Origin: a virus
DNA length: 48,539 nucleotides
Virus record (IMG/VR): IMGVR_UViG_3300026078_000038
Span: 1-48,539 of that record
Strand: one strand, 5' to 3'
Part shown: positions 4,318 through 34,400 of the stretch, one piece after another
Numbering within the stretch: the stretch's first letter is position 1
How the letters are laid out: each line of letters opens with the position of its first letter
Notes under the pieces: model-generated
Databases searched by the model: none
What the model saw: the letters and a program-made list of their open reading frames with translations, nothing else
What the model was told of the DNA's origin: nothing
Made by a program: the position numbers and the translations under genes

Positions 4318-4364
4318 AACCCCCGGATCTAGGCGGCAACGCTTAGGTCTGGGGGTTTTATTTT
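4318..4364 (+). terminator. rho-independent terminator
   Basis: AACCCCC (4318-4324) pairs with GGGGGTT (4351-4357), extended inward by GATC/GGTC-like pairs with one mismatch, and is followed by TTTATTTT. It lies 29 nt after the stop of the 414-residue early gene. Confidence 0.8.
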
Positions 4365-4931: not shown

Positions 4932-5171
4932 ATGGGTTTGGTAGTAAGCGCTATCGCTTGTTACTGGGTAATACGATTAACCGTGCTTTATGTTGCAGCA
5001 AGACAACAATCTAAAGTCGCTGAACGAGCAGCAAAAAGAGCTGCTCAGAAAATCGCTTATGAACGTAATGGATATACGGTCATCACTGACGCCCTTAGTG
5101 GGGAAATCACCCATTATTTCAAGAGTGGACCATGCGCTGCACGAGGCGACAGTCCTACTGTCACTAGCTAG
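4932..5171 (+). CDS. small membrane protein with basic helix
   Basis: 79 residues, ATG with GGGAG eight bases upstream. Residues 2-22 form a membrane segment, followed by a basic Ala/Lys-rich helix (about 24-42) and a polar C-terminal domain containing NGYTVITDALSGEITHYF. It overlaps a second open frame at 4990-5193. The better ribosome site favours this frame. Function unknown. Confidence 0.6.
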   Translation: MGLVVSAIACYWVIRLTVLYVAARQQSKVAERAAKRAAQKIAYERNGYTVITDALSGEITHYFKSGPCAARGDSPTVTS

Positions 5172-5193
5172 TTATGGGTCGGATCACTATTAA
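4990..5193 (+). CDS. possible overlapping 67-residue protein
   Basis: A second frame inside the previous gene and extending 22 nt past it. The product is an amphipathic helical sequence (LKSLNEQQKELLRKSL and LHEATVLLSLAS), which looks protein-like. No good ribosome site is seen. Both frames may be used, or only one; sequence alone does not decide. Confidence 0.35.
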   Translation: MLQQDNNLKSLNEQQKELLRKSLMNVMDIRSSLTPLVGKSPIISRVDHALHEATVLLSLASYGSDHY

Positions 5194-5228
5194 TAATCTT
5201 AATGGTTAACACAATTAATGGGATTATC

Positions 5229-5546
5229 ATGAACGCACAGCTATTAAGGGCGTGTCGCTTACTCGCCACAGTGCATAGTGTTGAGATTTTCCGTCTTAAG
5301 CAAGGCGACGACCATGTCTACTTGCATACGAATTTGCCTAATCCCAAAGCGCCGTACACGGGAGGACTTGCTCTCCATTTAACGGTTGATCGGGGTACGG
5401 GCACAGATTGGGTCCACAACAACTTTCCAGGCGTTGAGACCCATCTATACGACCATACTATTGGTCGTATTTTAGCGCATAATCCCGCGCCCTCTTCATC
5501 TTCTGTGGAAGAGGATAGTCAACCTGCAGTTGTGGCTGCGGCTTGA
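5229..5546 (+). CDS. hypothetical early protein
   Basis: 105 residues from the ATG at 5229, chosen for GGGATT upstream; an in-frame ATG at 5202 lacks a ribosome site. The core is a mixed alpha/beta soluble domain with several His residues, followed by a Ser-rich and acidic, then Ala-rich tail (from about residue 88). No family recognised. Confidence 0.65.
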   Translation: MNAQLLRACRLLATVHSVEIFRLKQGDDHVYLHTNLPNPKAPYTGGLALHLTVDRGTGTDWVHNNFPGVETHLYDHTIGRILAHNPAPSSSSVEEDSQPAVVAAA

Positions 5547-5603
5547 GGGTCGTTTCTCAACCGGTCTAAGCTCTCACACGCGACGATAATCGCAATTAGT
5601 GGG

Positions 5604-5708
5604 ATGAAGGGGTTCAATTCCCCGATGAAGCGGAGGGTCGCTGGTATACCGCCCGGAATAGTATACCGCCAGTTTAAGGGTCCTACCACAGCACCGGAAC
5701 GCAAGTAG
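5604..5708 (+). CDS. possible 34-residue basic peptide upstream of the ribozyme
   Basis: A short frame from ATG 5604 to TAG 5706-5708 giving a basic, Pro/Gly-containing peptide. The only ribosome site is GTGGG directly against the ATG, which is poor. It lies in the 440-nt gap before the hammerhead. Weak call. Confidence 0.25.
   Translation: MKGFNSPMKRRVAGIPPGIVYRQFKGPTTAPERK
5644..5670. repeat. direct repeat GTATACCGCC x2
   Basis: GTATACCGCC at 5644-5653 and 5661-5670, 17 bp apart start to start. GTATAC itself is a palindrome. It could be a protein-binding site. It also lies inside the weak 34-residue frame. Confidence 0.45.
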
Positions 5709-5717
5709 CTGTGCATT

Positions 5718-5804
5718 CCTTGTACCATTTTATACGACTGATGAGACCGTAAGGTCGAAACGGCGGTTGTGAGCCGCTGTCTCGTAGCCTCTCAAGGTAC
5801 AGGG
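5718..5804 (+). ncRNA. hammerhead ribozyme, type I
   Basis: All parts of the catalytic core are present in order. Stem I 5' strand TACGA (5733-5737), core CTGATGA (5738-5744), stem II GACC-GTAA-GGTC (5745-5756, GNRA loop), core GAAA (5757-5760), stem III CGGCGG/CCGCTG (5761-5766 and 5774-5779, one G-U pair), then T5780 and C5781 as the cleavage-site residues, and stem I 3' strand TCGTA (5782-5786), fully complementary. Stem I continues beyond an internal loop with CCTTGTACC (5718-5726) pairing GGTACAGGG (5796-5804), the arrangement used by natural hammerheads for loop-loop contact. Stems II and III are closed, so it is type I. Cleavage is predicted between 5781 and 5782. It is on the sense strand of the early operon and may process that mRNA. 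Confidence 0.92.
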
Positions 5805-5840
5805 CGGTGGAGAGGGTGAGCGTTCCATTTGTTACCCCCA

Positions 5841-5864
5841 ACACGGGCACTCGCCCGCCCGTGT
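5841..5864. repeat. perfect hairpin ACACGGGC/GCCCGTGT
   Basis: 8-bp perfect inverted repeat with an 8-nt loop, 36 nt after the ribozyme. No T-run follows, so it is not a standard terminator on either strand. It may protect the 5' end of the ribozyme's downstream cleavage product, which is a guess. Confidence 0.5.
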
Positions 5865-5984
5865 AACCTGCGTTTGGACGTTCGCAGTTTAATATAAAAC
5901 GTCCAGGGATCTAGCTAAACCACAAAAAGTGGTGGCAGTACATACATCTGAGTGAAGTTTGGTCGCTTCTCTCTTGGGTGGTCC

Positions 5985-6149
5985 ATGATTAAGATTATCG
6001 TTAATATTCAACGACGTATCCCTGCTAATATGCTATGGGATCGTTTTTCCTTAGATAAAAAGCAAGCCGAAGTGCTTGCTCAGCTCAAGACTAAGAATAA
6101 AAAGAGCACTACGGACTTGGCATTCGTTCAAGATCCGCATTCCGCATAG
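5985..6149 (+). CDS. hypothetical 54-residue early protein
   Basis: Start chosen at ATG 5985, three bases after GGGTGG; an upstream in-frame GTG at 5952 would add 11 residues. The product is helical and basic (QLKTKNKKSTTDLAF near the end). It is the first gene after the ribozyme and is followed by a strong terminator, so it lies on the 3' cleavage product. Function unknown. Confidence 0.55.
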   Translation: MIKIIVNIQRRIPANMLWDRFSLDKKQAEVLAQLKTKNKKSTTDLAFVQDPHSA

Positions 6150-6184
6150 TTTTCTGTCCGCCCAGGGGCCATTGAGCCCCACTC

Positions 6185-6220
6185 GCCCGTATTGAGATTT
6201 AGTTCTCAACGGGCTTTTTT
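6185..6220 (+). terminator. rho-independent terminator
   Basis: GCCCGT-at-TGAGA pairs with TCTCA-ACGGGC, followed by six T residues. It lies 36 nt after the stop of the 54-residue gene. Confidence 0.85.
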
Positions 6221-6280
6221 GTCCGCAACAGCCTCGCTAGAGGCTACGCTTTCCTACGTCCACGATATTTAGGAGTCCTA

Positions 6281-7103: not shown

Positions 7104-7291
7104 TAAACTTCATAGCGCACACTGAGGGATCCAACCATCTTGATTGGTACATAATTTCTCTCGAAGACGATAGACAAGCATACGCACGAGAGACAGTTTT
7201 ACATAAACTCCCGGATGAATATTCGCCGGGAGATATGCGGGTCATAGAAGAGTTGATGAACAAAAAACGGAACGAGGTTACGTGTGAGTAA
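6998..7291 (+). CDS. hypothetical protein leading the ligase cluster
   Basis: 97 residues, ATG with TAGGAG upstream. The fold looks like a small beta barrel: KGDAWIHAYDGTVVQVVNF then DWYIISLEDD, resembling small chromo- or SH3-like phage proteins. It overlaps the next gene by 8 nt, so it is probably translated with it. No family assigned. Confidence 0.7.
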   Translation: MPKFANGEFALLQGIKNCKKGDAWIHAYDGTVVQVVNFIAHTEGSNHLDWYIISLEDDRQAYARETVLHKLPDEYSPGDMRVIEELMNKKRNEVTCE

Positions 7292-8222
7292 GTACACTGT
7301 TACAATCGGAGCTGATCCAGAGTTCTTTGTACGCGAAAAGAAGACGGGTCTAGTGGTCCCTGCGTGCCGGAAATTCGGCGGAGAGAAACGGGCTCCTATG
7401 TTTCTATCACCAGACGGTGGTTATCTCGAAGACGGCTGTGCAGTCGAATTCAACGTAACTCCATCGAAATCATTGAAGGATTGCCGTAAGAAGCTTCAAG
7501 ATCTGATGCTGATATTCCTCAATCAGCACAAGGATTATATTATTTCGGAGGACTCCCATGCTACGTTCAGAATGGACGATCTTGTCAAGCTTCCTGAAGC
7601 GATGTGTATCGGCTGTTCTCCTGATCTATTTGCTTATGGCTTACGGAACGCTCCTTCTATTGAACGATTTGGGGCTAGCCGGTTTGCGGGTGGGCACGTG
7701 CATCTCGGCATTGACCCGTGGCCCGAGGGCTTGGATAAAGCGAACGCCATCAAAATGATGGATGCGTTATTGATATTTCCGATGTGCGGATTTGTGGACG
7801 TAGCTAGATACCCGTTCTACGGCCATCCAGGACTGTATCGAGAGACTCCGTATGGCGTTGAGCATCGTAGTCCCGATAATTGGTGGTGCAATGACGCCAA
7901 GTTCAACACAGTCAAGAAGGATTATCAGGGTTATTTCCACGACGTTATCGAGGAATTTGACAAAGCAATCGTCTCAATGAGCTATATTCTCAATTTCGAT
8001 GGGCACGGCGCCAGGTTAAACGACGATCTGGAGAGGGCGTATAAAAACTGGAAAATGTCTGATCTGGGTGACTTGGGCAGTACTGAGCGAGCCATCACTT
8101 TGAACACGTACCGTCGCTGCGGCAACGATCTTAGATATATGTTCAAGCACTGGGTAGGTGATCGTGCTGCGCCGCGAGGGCAGGGTCCCAGAAGCAAAGG
8201 CAAAGCCGTAATCGGAGGATAA
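7284..8222 (+). CDS. phage COOH-NH2 ligase (amidoligase, phiEco32 type)
   Basis: 312 residues from a GTG start with GAGG upstream. Motifs match the glutamine-synthetase-fold amidoligases of the phiEco32-like COOH-NH2 ligase family: GADPEFFV (residues 9-16), EDG then VEFN (49-57), GGHVHLG (136-142) and later EHRSPDNWW. The acidic and His residues would bind metal and ATP. Such enzymes activate a carboxylate with ATP and join it to an amine, making isopeptide-like bonds. It opens a cluster with a second amidoligase, a class II amidotransferase and an ATP-grasp ligase, which points to stepwise synthesis of a modified peptide or metabolite. Family assignment is from motif recognition; the substrate is unknown. 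Confidence 0.85.
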   Translation: MSKYTVTIGADPEFFVREKKTGLVVPACRKFGGEKRAPMFLSPDGGYLEDGCAVEFNVTPSKSLKDCRKKLQDLMLIFLNQHKDYIISEDSHATFRMDDLVKLPEAMCIGCSPDLFAYGLRNAPSIERFGASRFAGGHVHLGIDPWPEGLDKANAIKMMDALLIFPMCGFVDVARYPFYGHPGLYRETPYGVEHRSPDNWWCNDAKFNTVKKDYQGYFHDVIEEFDKAIVSMSYILNFDGHGARLNDDLERAYKNWKMSDLGDLGSTERAITLNTYRRCGNDLRYMFKHWVGDRAAPRGQGPRSKGKAVIGG

Positions 8223-8223
8223 A

Positions 8224-9060
8224 ATGCTTACCGTAAACGGCTCGATCTACAAGGACGTGGATCACAAAGACTTCTACCATTATTTCCAAGAGACAGCAAT
8301 GATGTGGAAGTTAACCAGCACTAAGACAAGGCTGTTCATCGTTGGAGAACACGAGAACTCAGATTACATCACTGGTACTTATCTGACCAGAGAGGCCCAG
8401 TTTAAGGTCAAGAAGATTTCCTGGCAGGATTGGTGGAAAGTATTGGATCCCATCGTCCTTGAGCCCCTGTTATTCAACGTCCCCGGGGGATGTGGCCTGT
8501 GGAAGCATCCGCTGGCTAAGAACCTGCGTAAATCGTTCCCCTGGAAGACCGGAGGTATACAGTTCTTTGGGCCTATAAAGCCAGAAGATAAGACCATGCA
8601 GAAGATTGGATCTATAGCCTTCGGAGAACTGTACGGCCGTCCTAAGACCTATCCTACGCTTCTGGAGGGCCTCGATTCAGGGACCTCGATAGCGTGCGCC
8701 AAGCGATTCATTATTGATCGTAGTAAGGGCAAATTACTACTCTTGGGGCGTCCCCTAGGGGAAGTGGCCGGAGCCACAATACGGCTCTTTAATAGCTGCT
8801 CTGTATTTAAAGAGCTACTCGTCAAGAAACACGGGATTCCAGAAAACTATATCCACATTGCGCCTCCGATTCCTAAGCCCAAAGATCCAGAACCTGTGGA
8901 CATGGTATTTAATAAAAATTGGATTGAAGGATATCATCCAGAGGGTATTGCTGTAGGATATTCAGTGATACAAATAGGTACCGATAAGATGAGAACTTAC
9001 ACAGGGGTACCCGGTAAACTCCTGCTAGGGTGGATTCTTTACAATAGTTGGGGTGTATAA
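8224..9060 (+). CDS. unknown protein between the two amidoligases
   Basis: 278 residues with an excellent ribosome site (CGGAGG) 2 nt after the previous stop, and a 1-nt stop/start overlap with the next ligase (TAATG). It is globular with no signal peptide. A Gly/Lys-rich strand region (VPGGCGLWKHPLAKN, residues 86-100), a patch of His/Pro (HIAPPIPKPKDPEP) and a C-terminal beta stretch are visible. I do not recognise the family. Tight coupling on both sides argues that it takes part in the ligation pathway, for example as carrier, substrate or third enzyme. Confidence 0.8.
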   Translation: MLTVNGSIYKDVDHKDFYHYFQETAMMWKLTSTKTRLFIVGEHENSDYITGTYLTREAQFKVKKISWQDWWKVLDPIVLEPLLFNVPGGCGLWKHPLAKNLRKSFPWKTGGIQFFGPIKPEDKTMQKIGSIAFGELYGRPKTYPTLLEGLDSGTSIACAKRFIIDRSKGKLLLLGRPLGEVAGATIRLFNSCSVFKELLVKKHGIPENYIHIAPPIPKPKDPEPVDMVFNKNWIEGYHPEGIAVGYSVIQIGTDKMRTYTGVPGKLLLGWILYNSWGV

Positions 9061-9971
9061 TGAAAGTCCGACAGCTCTTTGGAAACGCAGAGTTCCTTGA
9101 GCAAGAACAACCAGTCCCAGAGTTCTGTCTCCCCAAGACTCGTATAGGACTAGAATACGAATGGGAGACGTGTGGGCAATGGCCTTTCCCCAAGAATATG
9201 AAGGGAGAGGCACCGCCCGAGTGCTCCGCGTACCCCGCACATATACAATCCGTAGCTAGATATTTCGACTGGCACGTTGACGGGAGTTTACGTAAAAATG
9301 GTATCGAATTCACGTTCAGACAAGGATATTCGGGCTCGAAGATCCTCGGTGCCGTTGATGCGATGGACGACTGCTCCCGTGCTCTTGGATTCACGGGGAC
9401 GTATCGTACCTCCTTGCACTGCCACATCGATATGCAGGATACTAACTTCCCTCAGGATGTGGAACAACTAGGAGCGATCTACTGCCTGGTGGAACCGTTC
9501 TTGTACCAGTTCGTAGGTAACAACAGGAACATCTCGAACTACTGTATCCCGTGGTACAAGCATCCACAACATTTCGAGAACTTCCGGGATACTCTCAAGA
9601 CGTACCACAAGGACGGTAAGCCATCTGTGCTGCCCTATCTGCAGAATCACCAAGGAGACAAATACGCAGGATTGAATTGTTTCGCTATTGGCAATTTTGG
9701 TACGGTTGAGTTCAGGCAAGCTCCGGTTACTCTGCAACGGGACAAGATTATTACCTGGATCAATCTCATCATGCGTCTCAAGGAGTGGGTACGTAATCAT
9801 CCAATGACCCCTCAAAAGGTCTTGGAAACGTGTAATGGAACCAGGCCTCATGTCTTGCTACAGGAGGTCTTTCAATCTCACTACCCAGATGCTGTACGCT
9901 TGTCTCGTAATGTAGAGGCAGATGTGTGGAGTGGTCTGGAAACTCTGTATCAGTACGTAGCAGCGGGCTAA
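9060..9971 (+). CDS. second amidoligase (Amidoligase_2-like)
   Basis: 303 residues from ATG 9060, which overlaps the previous stop by one base; GGGGTG lies upstream. It shows the signature set of the second glutamine-synthetase-like amidoligase family: IGLEYEWE (29-36), HVDGSLR (72-78), GIEF (81-84), SLHCHID (118-124) and GTVEFRQAP near residue 220. The paired Glu and His residues fit metal/ATP binding. Distinct from the ligase at 7284, so the phage carries two different ligases of this fold. Probable role: ATP-dependent amide bond formation in the same pathway. Confidence 0.85.
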   Translation: MKVRQLFGNAEFLEQEQPVPEFCLPKTRIGLEYEWETCGQWPFPKNMKGEAPPECSAYPAHIQSVARYFDWHVDGSLRKNGIEFTFRQGYSGSKILGAVDAMDDCSRALGFTGTYRTSLHCHIDMQDTNFPQDVEQLGAIYCLVEPFLYQFVGNNRNISNYCIPWYKHPQHFENFRDTLKTYHKDGKPSVLPYLQNHQGDKYAGLNCFAIGNFGTVEFRQAPVTLQRDKIITWINLIMRLKEWVRNHPMTPQKVLETCNGTRPHVLLQEVFQSHYPDAVRLSRNVEADVWSGLETLYQYVAAG

Positions 9972-9997
9972 CGGCCCTTAGCATAAGGAATAATAAA

Positions 9998-11626
9998 ATG
10001 TGTGGTTTGGTAGGAGCGTTTAAAGCAAATAGCGCTCACTGGCAGAAGATTCAGCACTATATGTGGCAAGGGCTATACATGTCCGCATTGCGAGGCATGG
10101 GAGGCACCGGCATTGGTATGGTCTTCGAGGACTTCGATACCGAGTATGCCAAGACGCATACATCGGCCATTAATTTCCTAAACTCTTCCGAATGGGATTG
10201 GGTTGATAGGAATATCTTCAACACTCGGGCATTGCTGGGGCACACTCGCTCCGCGACGCTGGGCAAGGTTTCCGGATACAACTCCCATCCATTCCGTTTG
10301 AAAGATGAAAACAACGAGATCTTGCTCATTCACAACGGGCATGTTAGGAACTTTCGGTCGCTCACTCCTAACAATTTCACTCACGACGTTGACTCTGCTC
10401 ACGTGGCTCATTCTATCCTCAAGAGGGGAGCTATCCCTACTCTCGAATTGCTGGAGGGAGCTTACACTCTTATCTGGTATGACAAGAAAGCCAAAACCAT
10501 GAACATTGCTCGCAACGAGGAGCGAGATTTATGGTGCATTGAAGATAAGGGCAACACTAAGTTCTACTTCGCCTCTGAAATCGATATGCTGGCTTCCATC
10601 CTGAGCCGTAACGACATTCCACATGATCGGCAAGGATTTTACCAATTCCCGACGATGAAGTTGCATACGTATGACCTGACCAAGGCCGTACTCAAGCCAT
10701 CCATCACGGAATACGAAGAAAAAAAATCTTGGCCCGCCAGTTGCGGCGCAAGCTTTCAAAGAAGCAGCGGCGGGCACTCCACTAGTCTTGACATCTACGT
10801 TAAAAACGCTCCCAACGTGGGAGATGCGATATGGTGTAAGAACGCAGATCCTGCAGATTCAGCCCTCGTTCTTTACAAAGATATCGGGGATGGAGAGGGC
10901 CAGGTGGCTTCACAAGATGCGTATGGCTATATATACGGATCACGAGCTATGGAACTGGGCGCAATCGTCCGGGTTAACGGAATCAGTTACCTAGAGTGGA
11001 AGTTCAAGTGGCAGTTTATTCGTGATTGCCTCCCGATCAAGCTTACGAAGGTGGAGCGTAACGTTAAGCACAAGACCACGGAAACGATGTATACGTATTA
11101 CGAAGGCATGCTCCTTAAGGAAGAGGCGGAGAAAGAGTTTCAGAGATACGACGCTCGCATCAAGCACCTCGAACGAGAAGAGGCGGCCAAGAAACAACGC
11201 AAAGAATATGAGGAAGCGCTGGCTTCCGGGAGGGCGGTTCCCGTACCAGCCTCCCCCAAGGAGGACAAGACTGACTCCGAACGCAGCGGAGGAGCTGTGG
11301 GAGCTGGGGTGGGACCCGTACACGGGACTCCCGATCAGGGACGAGAACTGGGAGCTGTAGAGAAAGAGAAGCACGTCTTTCCTCAGATCATGGTCCCAGG
11401 CCCCGAGGGACGAGAGATCACGGTCCAGCAATGGAAAGACATTGCTTGTCAGGGATGCGTGTTCTGTAAGGGTAAGTTCGAGATCGAGCTGGATCGAGGC
11501 AGAGTCCAGTTCTTCCAGTTACCGTGTAACCACGAGGATCGTAACGTCAACGATAGAGAGTATCAGATGATCTGCCCTGAGTGCATTGACGATCCCAAGA
11601 AAATGGAGCAGATAGCCGCCGCGTAA
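9998..11626 (+). CDS. class II glutamine amidotransferase with zinc-finger-like C-terminus
   Basis: 542 residues from ATG 9998 (AAGGA upstream); this start puts Cys2 at the N-terminus after Met removal, as the family requires. Class II glutaminase landmarks: MCGLVGAF (1-8), RGMGGTG (32-38), GHTRSATLG (81-89), HNGHVRN (112-118), DSAH (132-135). The enzyme should release ammonia from glutamine. After about residue 250 the sequence is not a synthetase I recognise: a charged coiled coil (about 380-415), a Pro/Gly linker, then CQGCVFCK and ICPEC, which look like metal-binding Cys pairs. In the cluster it could supply ammonia to a ligase. The long C-terminal extension is unusual for the glutaminase domain. 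Confidence 0.88.
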   Translation: MCGLVGAFKANSAHWQKIQHYMWQGLYMSALRGMGGTGIGMVFEDFDTEYAKTHTSAINFLNSSEWDWVDRNIFNTRALLGHTRSATLGKVSGYNSHPFRLKDENNEILLIHNGHVRNFRSLTPNNFTHDVDSAHVAHSILKRGAIPTLELLEGAYTLIWYDKKAKTMNIARNEERDLWCIEDKGNTKFYFASEIDMLASILSRNDIPHDRQGFYQFPTMKLHTYDLTKAVLKPSITEYEEKKSWPASCGASFQRSSGGHSTSLDIYVKNAPNVGDAIWCKNADPADSALVLYKDIGDGEGQVASQDAYGYIYGSRAMELGAIVRVNGISYLEWKFKWQFIRDCLPIKLTKVERNVKHKTTETMYTYYEGMLLKEEAEKEFQRYDARIKHLEREEAAKKQRKEYEEALASGRAVPVPASPKEDKTDSERSGGAVGAGVGPVHGTPDQGRELGAVEKEKHVFPQIMVPGPEGREITVQQWKDIACQGCVFCKGKFEIELDRGRVQFFQLPCNHEDRNVNDREYQMICPECIDDPKKMEQIAAA

Positions 11627-11657
11627 GCGGCGTACATTTCCTTTGGAAATAGGCAGC

Positions 11658-11810
11658 ATGAACACCAAGATATTACCCTGCACTTGTAAAAACGAGTGGC
11701 AGGACAAGAAGTACGGAAACGGGAATAGGGTCTTTAATCAGGTATCCACACCTCCTACCATGCCCAAGGCGTGGAGGTGTACGGTGTGTACCGCAAAGAA
11801 GGTATCATGA
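11658..11810 (+). CDS. 50-residue zinc-ribbon-like microprotein
   Basis: ATG 11658 to TGA 11810. CTCKNEW near the start and RCTVCTAKK near the end give four Cys in C-x-C and C-x2-C pairs, a likely single zinc ribbon. AGG precedes the start. It overlaps the next microprotein by 4 nt (ATGA), so it belongs to the cluster operon. It may be an adaptor or a ligation target; both are guesses. Confidence 0.6.
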   Translation: MNTKILPCTCKNEWQDKKYGNGNRVFNQVSTPPTMPKAWRCTVCTAKKVS

Positions 11811-11881
11811 GTCCACAAGTAGCAATTATTCTAGTCTGGGGGTTGATTTTAGGCATCTTCATTTGGAAGGTCATGGATTAA
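11807..11881 (+). CDS. 24-residue membrane microprotein
   Basis: ATG 11807 overlaps the previous stop by 4 nt (ATGA). Nearly the whole peptide is one membrane span (VAIILVWGLILGIFIW) ending KVMD. The next gene starts 1 nt after its stop. Its exact fit between two genes suggests it is translated. A function in anchoring or as a substrate of the ligases cannot be judged from sequence. Confidence 0.5.
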   Translation: MSPQVAIILVWGLILGIFIWKVMD

Positions 11882-11882
11882 T

Positions 11883-12674
11883 ATGAGAACAGTACTACTC
11901 ACCCCGTGGTACGGAGGTACACCACGGCGGTTGGCTAATAACCTCAACCTGCTTCGACGGACTCCCGATGAGTGGGAGACGGACAAGCAGAAGAACAAGG
12001 TCGGCTTGATAGTTAACTGGGGGTGCTCTCGAGTAATGGGAGCTGGTCCGCAGGTCCTCAACCCAGCTTCCTCAGTAGCCAAGGCCAGTAATAAGCTGAG
12101 CTGCTTGAAGGTGCTTCATGACAAGATCATTCCGACACTCGAGTACACGCTGGATCGCAAGCAGGCAGAAGAGTGGCTCAAGAAGACCTCGGTCATTGGG
12201 CACTTCAATTTACACGCCCACTCGGGTCAAGGATTGGAGCTTTTTAAGAAGGGCAATGCCATCACCCGCGATGATATCAAGCTTTATACGAAATACTTCC
12301 CGAAGAAAGTCGAGGCTAGAGTACACTGCATTCTTAATGAGAATGGTAAGTATTCCTGCCTTTATCTGGAGAAGGGACGTGTATCGGAAGGACGCTGGTC
12401 TGAATTTGATCTCACGGAGACTCCATCGACCTATATACGCACTTGGGATAACGGGTGGATATTCAAGCGTAACGTCAATACCGACCTTGCTGCTTGCGAG
12501 CTTGCGTCTAAGGCTATGGCAGCGTTGGGTCTCTCTTATGGCGCGGTAGATATTATGCACCGTGATGGCGTGTACGTGATTGGTGAGGTTAACACCGCTC
12601 CGGGACTGGAAGGTCAATGTCTGGCTTTCTATGTAACCCATCTCGGAGCCCTGATTGATAGGAATAAGAAGTAA
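11883..12674 (+). CDS. ATP-grasp ligase
   Basis: 263 residues, GGAAGG upstream. It begins like phage ATP-grasp proteins (LIVNWGCS, residues about 42-49), has the glycine-loop region HAHSGQGLELFKK (about 111-123), the central strand VEARVHCI, and ends with the metal/ATP signature GEVNTAPGLEG (234-244), typical of D-Ala-D-Ala ligase/RimK-like ATP-grasp enzymes. It would form an acyl-phosphate and couple it to an amine. With the two amidoligases this is the third ATP-dependent peptide-bond-forming enzyme in 5.4 kb. The exact substrate is unknown. Confidence 0.88.
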   Translation: MRTVLLTPWYGGTPRRLANNLNLLRRTPDEWETDKQKNKVGLIVNWGCSRVMGAGPQVLNPASSVAKASNKLSCLKVLHDKIIPTLEYTLDRKQAEEWLKKTSVIGHFNLHAHSGQGLELFKKGNAITRDDIKLYTKYFPKKVEARVHCILNENGKYSCLYLEKGRVSEGRWSEFDLTETPSTYIRTWDNGWIFKRNVNTDLAACELASKAMAALGLSYGAVDIMHRDGVYVIGEVNTAPGLEGQCLAFYVTHLGALIDRNKK

Positions 12675-33416: not shown

Positions 33417-34400
33417 TTAGGTAGCAGGAACGATAACGCTCAGACCACGATCCAAGGAGGCCGTGTTCTCAGTGCGAACCACAGCGGCGCCGAAGGCGAC
33501 ATCCGCTACGATAGCATCCGAGAGGAACTCTACCTTGTACTGAGCCTGGACCCGCGGCTTGATCTGATTGACCAGAATCATCGCACTCTGGTGAGAGTAG
33601 ATGACCTGCCGATACGCCGTGGTGGTGTCCGTAGCGGTGAAGGACGAGCAGTTGCTCGACACGTACACGGGAGTGCCGTAGAGATTACCTACGTATCCGT
33701 TTCGAATCGAATTACCGTCGCCACCCTCTCCAATGAACGCCTGCTCAGTGAACCGCGGGATACCCAGGAGCTTCCTCTTGGCCACCGGAGGCAGACACCA
33801 GAACCGGTCGTCGCCAGGAACGTCGAGATCGTCAAGGGTCTGCATCAGCCGGCGGATGCCGTCATCAGTCAGATCCGAACCGTTACCCGTGTTCGTGTTA
33901 GCGCCCGGATTCCAGGCCGTAGAGCCATCGCCACCGATGACCGAACCACCCGAAGCCTTAGCGCCCGCAGACACCGCAGCGCCACCAGCAAGGACAGCCG
34001 CTACCTGATCATGAAGATAAGTATCTACCGCCAGTGCCAGGGAGTAGCTCATGTCATTGACAATGAACTTCCGGAGGCTAGGGAGAGATTGCTTCTCAAC
34101 GAGATCGGGCAACTGCTTACCGTGCACCCACCACTGGTTAATGGTGATAGTGAACTCGTTAGTAGTCGGAGCCGTGAAAGTGACCGCCTGACCCGGAGTG
34201 CTGAAGTACTGAGCCGCAGTACCGCGAGTGGAGGTCGGAATGTGGACCGTATCACCGTACTTGCCGGAGTGGTCCATGTTGTCAACCAAGTTCGCGAGAA
34301 CGAGGTTCTTCTTGTAGCGAACACTGAGTTCGTCCGCCCAGAGATCCGGGAGGAACGTACTAATGTTGCTAAAGGTTAATTGGCCAGTGCCAAGTGCCAT
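33417..34400 (-). CDS. major capsid protein
   Basis: 327 residues, AAGG upstream. HK97-fold coat type suggested by the N-terminal arm, YGDTVHIPTSTRG and a Gly/Ala-rich insertion (about 135-170) in the middle, then DRFWCLPPVAKRKLL, YVGNLYGTPVYVSSN and a final beta domain with FGAAVVRTE. Order scaffold-coat-adaptor is the usual one. A weak hairpin (GAGTT/AACTC, 34422-34439) overlaps the scaffold stop just upstream and may help set coat mRNA levels. Confidence 0.8.
   Translation of the reverse strand: MALGTGQLTFSNISTFLPDLWADELSVRYKKNLVLANLVDNMDHSGKYGDTVHIPTSTRGTAAQYFSTPGQAVTFTAPTTNEFTITINQWWVHGKQLPDLVEKQSLPSLRKFIVNDMSYSLALAVDTYLHDQVAAVLAGGAAVSAGAKASGGSVIGGDGSTAWNPGANTNTGNGSDLTDDGIRRLMQTLDDLDVPGDDRFWCLPPVAKRKLLGIPRFTEQAFIGEGGDGNSIRNGYVGNLYGTPVYVSSNCSSFTATDTTTAYRQVIYSHQSAMILVNQIKPRVQAQYKVEFLSDAIVADVAFGAAVVRTENTASLDRGLSVIVPAT

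Follow-up and report, generated by a model that had tools for sequence, protein, structure and literature searches.

Hammerhead ribozymes that flank phage genes, one of them in phage PaP3, were published in 2011 by Perreault et al. (PMC3088659). In the account given there, hammerheads of phages and prophages cleave in vitro, those of A. tumefaciens prophages cleave in E. coli, and a function in mRNA processing was proposed. The haloviruses HF1 and HF2 carry a hammerhead, HHphage, in an early operon, and the 5′ end of an HF2 transcript maps to within 3 nt of its cleavage site (PMC3088659). The PaP3 hammerhead is described as intergenic with a variant core, and may be either of the PaP3 ribozymes discussed below (PMC3088659). 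The question of what these ribozymes do in phages has stood since 2011.

Here we describe a hammerhead at positions 5718-5804 of a 48,539-nt stretch of viral DNA (IMG/VR virus record IMGVR_UViG_3300026078_000038, positions 1 to 48,539), the whole of which we refer to as the window. It has in common with the hammerheads of Perreault et al. the core, the three-helix fold, an intergenic sense position between phage genes and the type I topology that some of them show. It differs in being a single copy where theirs are illustrated as clustered copies, in lying 203 nt from the downstream start, and in having an extended stem I with an internal loop (PMC3088659). Like HHphage it appears to belong to the early operon of a lytic virus, but HHphage, which precedes a helicase start by 13 nt, is a core variant, whereas the core in the window is canonical (PMC3088659).

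Direct reading of the sequence and a structure built by hand confirm that 5718-5804 (plus strand) is a real and complete type I hammerhead ribozyme whose cleavage is predicted. The conserved elements CUGANGA, GAAA and UH (H not G) occur in order with three helices around the core. CUGAUGA occupies 5738-5744 and GAAA 5757-5760, and canonical hammerhead numbering places A15.1 at 5760 and U16.1-C17 at 5780-5781; the pairs G10.1-C11.1 (G5745-C5756) and A15.1-U16.1 (A5760-U5780) are both present. Stem II (GACC/GGUC, 4 bp, 5745-5748 with 5753-5756) is closed by the GNRA loop GUAA (5749-5752), and stem III is a closed hairpin at 5761-5779 whose strands, 5761-5766 and 5774-5779, form 6-8 bp including one G-U. 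The open helix is stem I, in agreement with the scanner, which classed stems II and III as closed. Its inner part of 5 bp (UACGA 5733-5737 with UCGUA 5782-5786) is separated by an internal loop (5727-5732 and 5787-5795) from an outer part of 9 bp, formed by CCUUGUACC (5718-5726) and GGUACAGGG (5796-5804). By inspection only, UAA of loop II (5750-5752) could form 3 bp with UUA of the internal loop (5730-5732). Cleavage is predicted at 5781/5782, immediately after C17 at 5781, which would make 5782-5786 the first bases of the 3′ product. The initial annotation had been right on the coordinates, the type I topology, the GNRA loop, the extended stem I and the cleavage point, and every core position and all three stems are found where it had placed them.

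With a loose descriptor that allows either topology, loops as long as 400 nt and stems as short as 3, 4 and 4 bp, this is the only hammerhead in the window, and 100 dinucleotide shuffles of the window (4.85 Mb) contain no hit. A loose core pattern alone matches six times in the window, as expected by chance. Shuffling the flanks 20,000 times gave a helix as long as the 9-bp outer stem I in 278 cases (about 1.4 %). At gathering thresholds Rfam has no match in the window. Below them, RAGATH-1-hammerhead (RF03152) aligns over the core and stems I-III at 5733-5786 with 24.4 bits (gathering 56.3), Hammerhead_3 (RF00008) matches the same spot partially with 23.9 bits (gathering 48.5) and Hammerhead_1 (RF00163) reaches 9.8 bits (gathering 34). 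These models are tuned to stem and loop sequences other than those of the window and may not fit phage hammerheads, so we collected other phage hammerheads for a model of our own. The resulting covariance model R1 consists of 16 type I hammerheads of other phages with the window left out. Applied to the window, R1 scores 5733-5786 at 51.7 bits (E=1.4e-15) and the next best place at 14.2 bits; R1 and a second model, R2, both mark only this one place. The members of R1 were chosen by structure, so their own pair counts are not independent evidence, while the score of the window is. The window also shows that phage hammerheads of this sort escape the Rfam gathering thresholds. A chance motif is ruled out by the shuffles together with the R1 E-value. 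These same two results and the intact state of all core positions make it very improbable that the element is an inactive look-alike or a relic kept by chance, a reading to which the Rfam result and the nearest relatives, devoid of the motif, would lend themselves.

The initial annotation had regarded phage hammerheads, or at least those with a defined gene context, as rare. This view is supported neither by the 2011 publication (PMC3088659) nor by our own searches. The pattern CTGATGAGACC-N4-GGTCGAAAC alone is found in 69 IMG/VR stretches, the majority of them able to fold into a type I or III hammerhead, and the pattern CTGATGAGNCCGTAAGGNCGAAAC in 9 further stretches; among Pseudomonas phages, one region is present in 90 records and another in 72. 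The window hammerhead adds to an already known phage motif an intact example with a defined gene context. Counting plausible starts for the hammerheads gathered in this analysis, a start codon lies within 60 nt of 47 % of 59 distinct type I and 70 % of 50 type III hammerheads, against 24 % of random positions. Most phage hammerheads thus lie ahead of a start codon in sense orientation, and the 203 nt in the window is at the long end compared with the usual 20-60 nt. Six phage contigs (L063, L194, L196, L197, L199 and L202) carry 3-8 type I hammerheads each, many of the copies 20-40 nt ahead of a Shine-Dalgarno sequence and ATG, like a tandem system for cutting cistrons.

Of the folds predicted for 5716-5806, the one of lowest energy (-34.1 kcal/mol) differs from the hammerhead, which comes to -33.3 kcal/mol when its helices are imposed; both folds contain the outer helix. 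The predicted pairing probabilities in this 91-mer are 0.14 for stem I and 0.23 for stem II. A comparison set of 48 type I hammerheads from other phages includes 18 with stem I likewise below 0.2; low stem II is uncommon in this set, where it usually exceeds 0.9. The nearly isoenergetic alternative fold and the low stem I and II probabilities are the main reason why we do not take cleavage for granted. The alternative fold would also suit a regulated ribozyme, in which this fold, with the core partly paired elsewhere and stem I broken, serves as an off state and cleavage depends on a factor, on temperature or on upstream RNA; further conserved or structured RNA in the same gap (5603-5623 and 5841-5864) would be in keeping with it. 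We consider such regulation unlikely, given that the nearest-neighbour model leaves out the tertiary contacts that stabilise hammerheads, that many phage hammerheads fold poorly in silico, that no ligand or partner was identified and that the full gap shows no unusual stability (z = -0.6).

The hammerhead lies in sense orientation between co-oriented genes, in a gap of 438 nt (440 nt in the initial annotation) that extends from a stop at 5546 to ATG 5985, or of 405 nt if the in-frame GTG at 5952 is taken. All features of this region are on the plus strand. Upstream are a small ORF of 79 aa (4932-5171) to which no function is assigned and a gene of 105 aa starting at ATG 5229 (5229-5546), both without Pfam or PHROG match; downstream is a small gene of 54 aa (5985-6149; 65 aa from the GTG), whose ATG is 203 nt past the cleavage site. 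The only terminator-like hairpins bounding the putative unit are one of 18 pairs with a U tract at 4318-4357, its upstream boundary, and one with a U6 tract at 6185-6220, its downstream boundary (fold of 6150-6228, z = -3.1). No convincing promoter was found within the gap.

Two other elements of the gap are structured: GATGAAGGGGTTCAATTCCCC (5603-5623), a GGGG-UUCAAUU-CCCC hairpin conserved as a 20-nt exact match in the related record G005, and, 3′ of the cleavage site, the GC-rich hairpin ACACGGGC/GCCCGUGU (5841-5864), seen in the sequence and in the fold of the gap. The T-arm-like look of the former (GGGG-TTCAATT-CCCC in DNA) prompted a tRNA reading of the gap, which was ruled out by ARAGORN and Rfam: neither finds a tRNA or tmRNA there. 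The 20-nt block GATGAAGGGGTTCAATTCCC (window 5603-5623; L190 7560-7541) is present at the homologous place of G005 and nowhere else in IMG/VR, and is possibly a second structured RNA. The length of the gap, the block conserved with G005 and the several hairpins could also mean that the hammerhead, though genuine, yields a stable noncoding RNA (for example 5547-5781 or 5782-5950) and not two mRNAs. This is improbable, since the single ribozyme could not excise a defined RNA unless some other step processed the transcript as well, and no known RNA family matches.

Between about 3 kb and 22 kb the genes of the window lie on the plus strand, and beyond that on the minus strand. A COOH.NH2 ligase (7284-8222), an amidoligase (9060-9971), a class II glutamine amidotransferase (9995-11626) and an ATP-grasp-like protein (11883-12674), all on the plus strand, are followed by primase/helicase and polymerase genes, and the order from ligase to polymerase is that of the early regions of Ab22 and of PaP3 / LUZ24-like phages. 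The 7284-12674 cluster itself is as in LUZ24- and phiEco32-like phages. The hammerhead, among small genes ahead of this cluster, occupies a place like that of the early genes of LUZ24-like phages. By gene order it thus looks like part of an early operon, which fits the earlier placement. Assigning the window phage to Bruynoghevirus would be too strong and was rejected: only the early module is common to them, the terminase is 23 % identical and the capsid protein (33417-34400, minus strand) resembles those of Pf-WMP3-like cyanophages and Streptomyces phage phiSASD1. With structural proteins that differ from the LUZ24-like ones, this is a mosaic podovirus-like phage. Relatives of this lineage, combining a Pf-WMP3-like capsid with an early module of the LUZ24/phiEco32 kind, are present in IMG/VR.

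Taken with the structure, this location makes it likely that the type I hammerhead at 5718-5804 is functional and acts in cis, cutting the polycistronic mRNA of an early transcription unit. The polymerase would read from the upstream small genes (4932-5546) through the gap into the 5985-6149 gene, and the gap RNA would fold and cleave itself at 5781/5782. In type I cleavage the ribozyme body stays on the upstream RNA and the downstream RNA receives a 5′-OH; the products of such chemistry generally differ in stability. Here the 5′ product would comprise the upstream genes and, as a structured 3′ end, nearly the whole ribozyme terminating in a 2′,3′-cyclic phosphate, and the 3′ product would start with a 5′-OH and a structured leader of about 200 nt ahead of the downstream gene. 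The likely effect would be that the two halves become independent of each other in stability and translation. We favor cis-cleavage because core and helices are complete, including the 9-bp outer stem I, and stand out in the shuffles and with R1; because the position is sense and intergenic, in a unit with terminator-like hairpins only at its ends and a gap that yielded no convincing promoter; and because the gene order is LUZ24-like and those phages have their own type I hammerhead among small early genes. The preference of phage hammerheads for sense positions before starts, and the cleavage tests reported by Perreault et al. (PMC3088659), argue in the same direction. Against it count the missing Rfam gathering score, the non-hammerhead minimum-energy fold, the relatives without the motif and the 203-nt distance to the start. 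The earlier proposal that self-cleavage, itself predicted, would split one transcript in two is supported.

A search with the capsid protein yields close relatives of the window phage; searches with the amidoligase, helicase and glutamine amidotransferase proteins gave nothing useful except one 4.2-kb fragment. Only two related records carry the upstream gene (5229-5546): G005 (47.8 kb, capsid 89 %), the nearest syntenic relative, at 61 % identity, and G004 at 33 %. The gap of G005 is shorter (about 255 nt); it keeps CCGGTnTAAGCTCT, GATGAAGGGGTTCAATTCCC and a leader AGCTAAAC...GTGGCAGTACAT aligned by eye, so that the flanking blocks are common to both and the hammerhead segment is missing. Pattern and model searches find no hammerhead in this gap or elsewhere in G005, none in G004 and no convincing one in 19 related records. 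The motif was thus either gained in the lineage of the window phage or lost in these relatives, and no alignment or covariation within the lineage can be shown. Of the comparison with related phages proposed in the initial annotation, it holds that no broken core is seen, and the comparative support expected from within the lineage is removed by G005 and G004.

The G005 gap, with its flanking blocks and no hammerhead segment, the state of G004 and a patchy spread in the lineage that is also general among phage hammerheads would fit an active but neutral passenger: the ribozyme and about 180 nt gained by recombination between phages, its cut harmless in an untranslated gap. We regard this as a serious possibility, though clearly the less probable one, because the core and stems are perfect down to the 9-bp outer stem I, with no decay visible, and because the corresponding early district also contains hammerheads in Bruynoghevirus, tf and JB8, a recurrence that suggests selection there.

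In these phages a type I hammerhead is found in the early region of PaP3 (L074, 44111-44036, minus strand), Ab22 (L072, 2252-2327) and LUZ24 (L076, 2410-2485), with R1 scores of 32-34 bits (sequences from ten genomes). The region recurs in 90 Pseudomonas phage records (loci L077-L083 included), with no ribozyme annotation among the matches listed. In L077, L078 and L083, among others, a CDS is annotated as starting inside the ribozyme, which is probably a wrong start. In Bruynoghevirus the predicted cut lies some 25-30 nt ahead of the next start and would leave that gene a leader of roughly 27 nt, in which an AAAGGA-like Shine-Dalgarno sequence is present. Homologues with different stems occur in Krylovvirus tf (L087, about 2695-2803) and JB8 (L088, 4449-4383), with A-U to G-C changes in stem I among the differences. 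All resemble the window hammerhead in being type I, early, on the same strand and flanked by small genes ahead of the amidoligase cluster. They have in common a stem I of CCCAA/UUGGG or CCCG/CGGG, whereas the window stems have no sequence in common with them; PaP3 and JB8 have a bulge in stem III. The window hammerhead is also further into the genome, and with stems so unlike, orthology is not shown: neither the gap DNA nor the upstream gene has a match in the sequenced-phage collection, and only the general early-region location is common with the LUZ24/PaP3 type I hammerhead. That the window hammerhead led to hammerheads in laboratory phages is the wider value of the finding, because well-studied culturable phages (LUZ24, PaP3, about 90 records) make the role testable.

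Some of these phages carry a type III hammerhead at the first early gene: PaP3 (L074 45468-45418, minus strand; 52.5 bits), tf (L087 1077-1131, plus strand; 34.2 bits), JB8 (L088 7915-7861, minus strand; 25.7 bits), and PaP4, phiPA01_302 and DL54 (L210 236-286, L211 336-386 and L212 336-386; 50-55 bits). Model searches find none in the window phage, LUZ24 or Ab22. The start codon overlaps the 3′ strand of stem III in JB8, tf, PaP4, DL54 and phiPA01_302 and follows it by one base in PaP3; stem III shows a compensatory change (GUCG/CGAC in PaP3, AUCG/CGAU in DL54 and PaP4), and AAGGAU, GGGGAU or GGAGGGU stands in stem/loop II at the Shine-Dalgarno position. With stem III holding or abutting the start codon and a Shine-Dalgarno-like stem/loop II, the start may be hidden until cleavage, and the sequences suggest cleavage-gated translation in these six phages. 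Transcription-start data for LUZ24 or PaP3 were not found in the papers searched. Tentatively, hammerhead self-cleavage might be a built-in expression step of the early modules of LUZ24-like phages, with the window phage as a distant carrier of such a module: in Bruynoghevirus, tf and JB8 type III cleavage would unmask translation, and a type I hammerhead further on, such as that of the window, would separate early cistrons. In tf, a tRNA-like stretch, which ARAGORN does not call as a tRNA, follows the type I hammerhead, and nested in the long stem III loop of that hammerhead (L087 2699-2803) is a strong GTACAC/GTGTAC hairpin with TTT directly after it, resembling a terminator inside the ribozyme.
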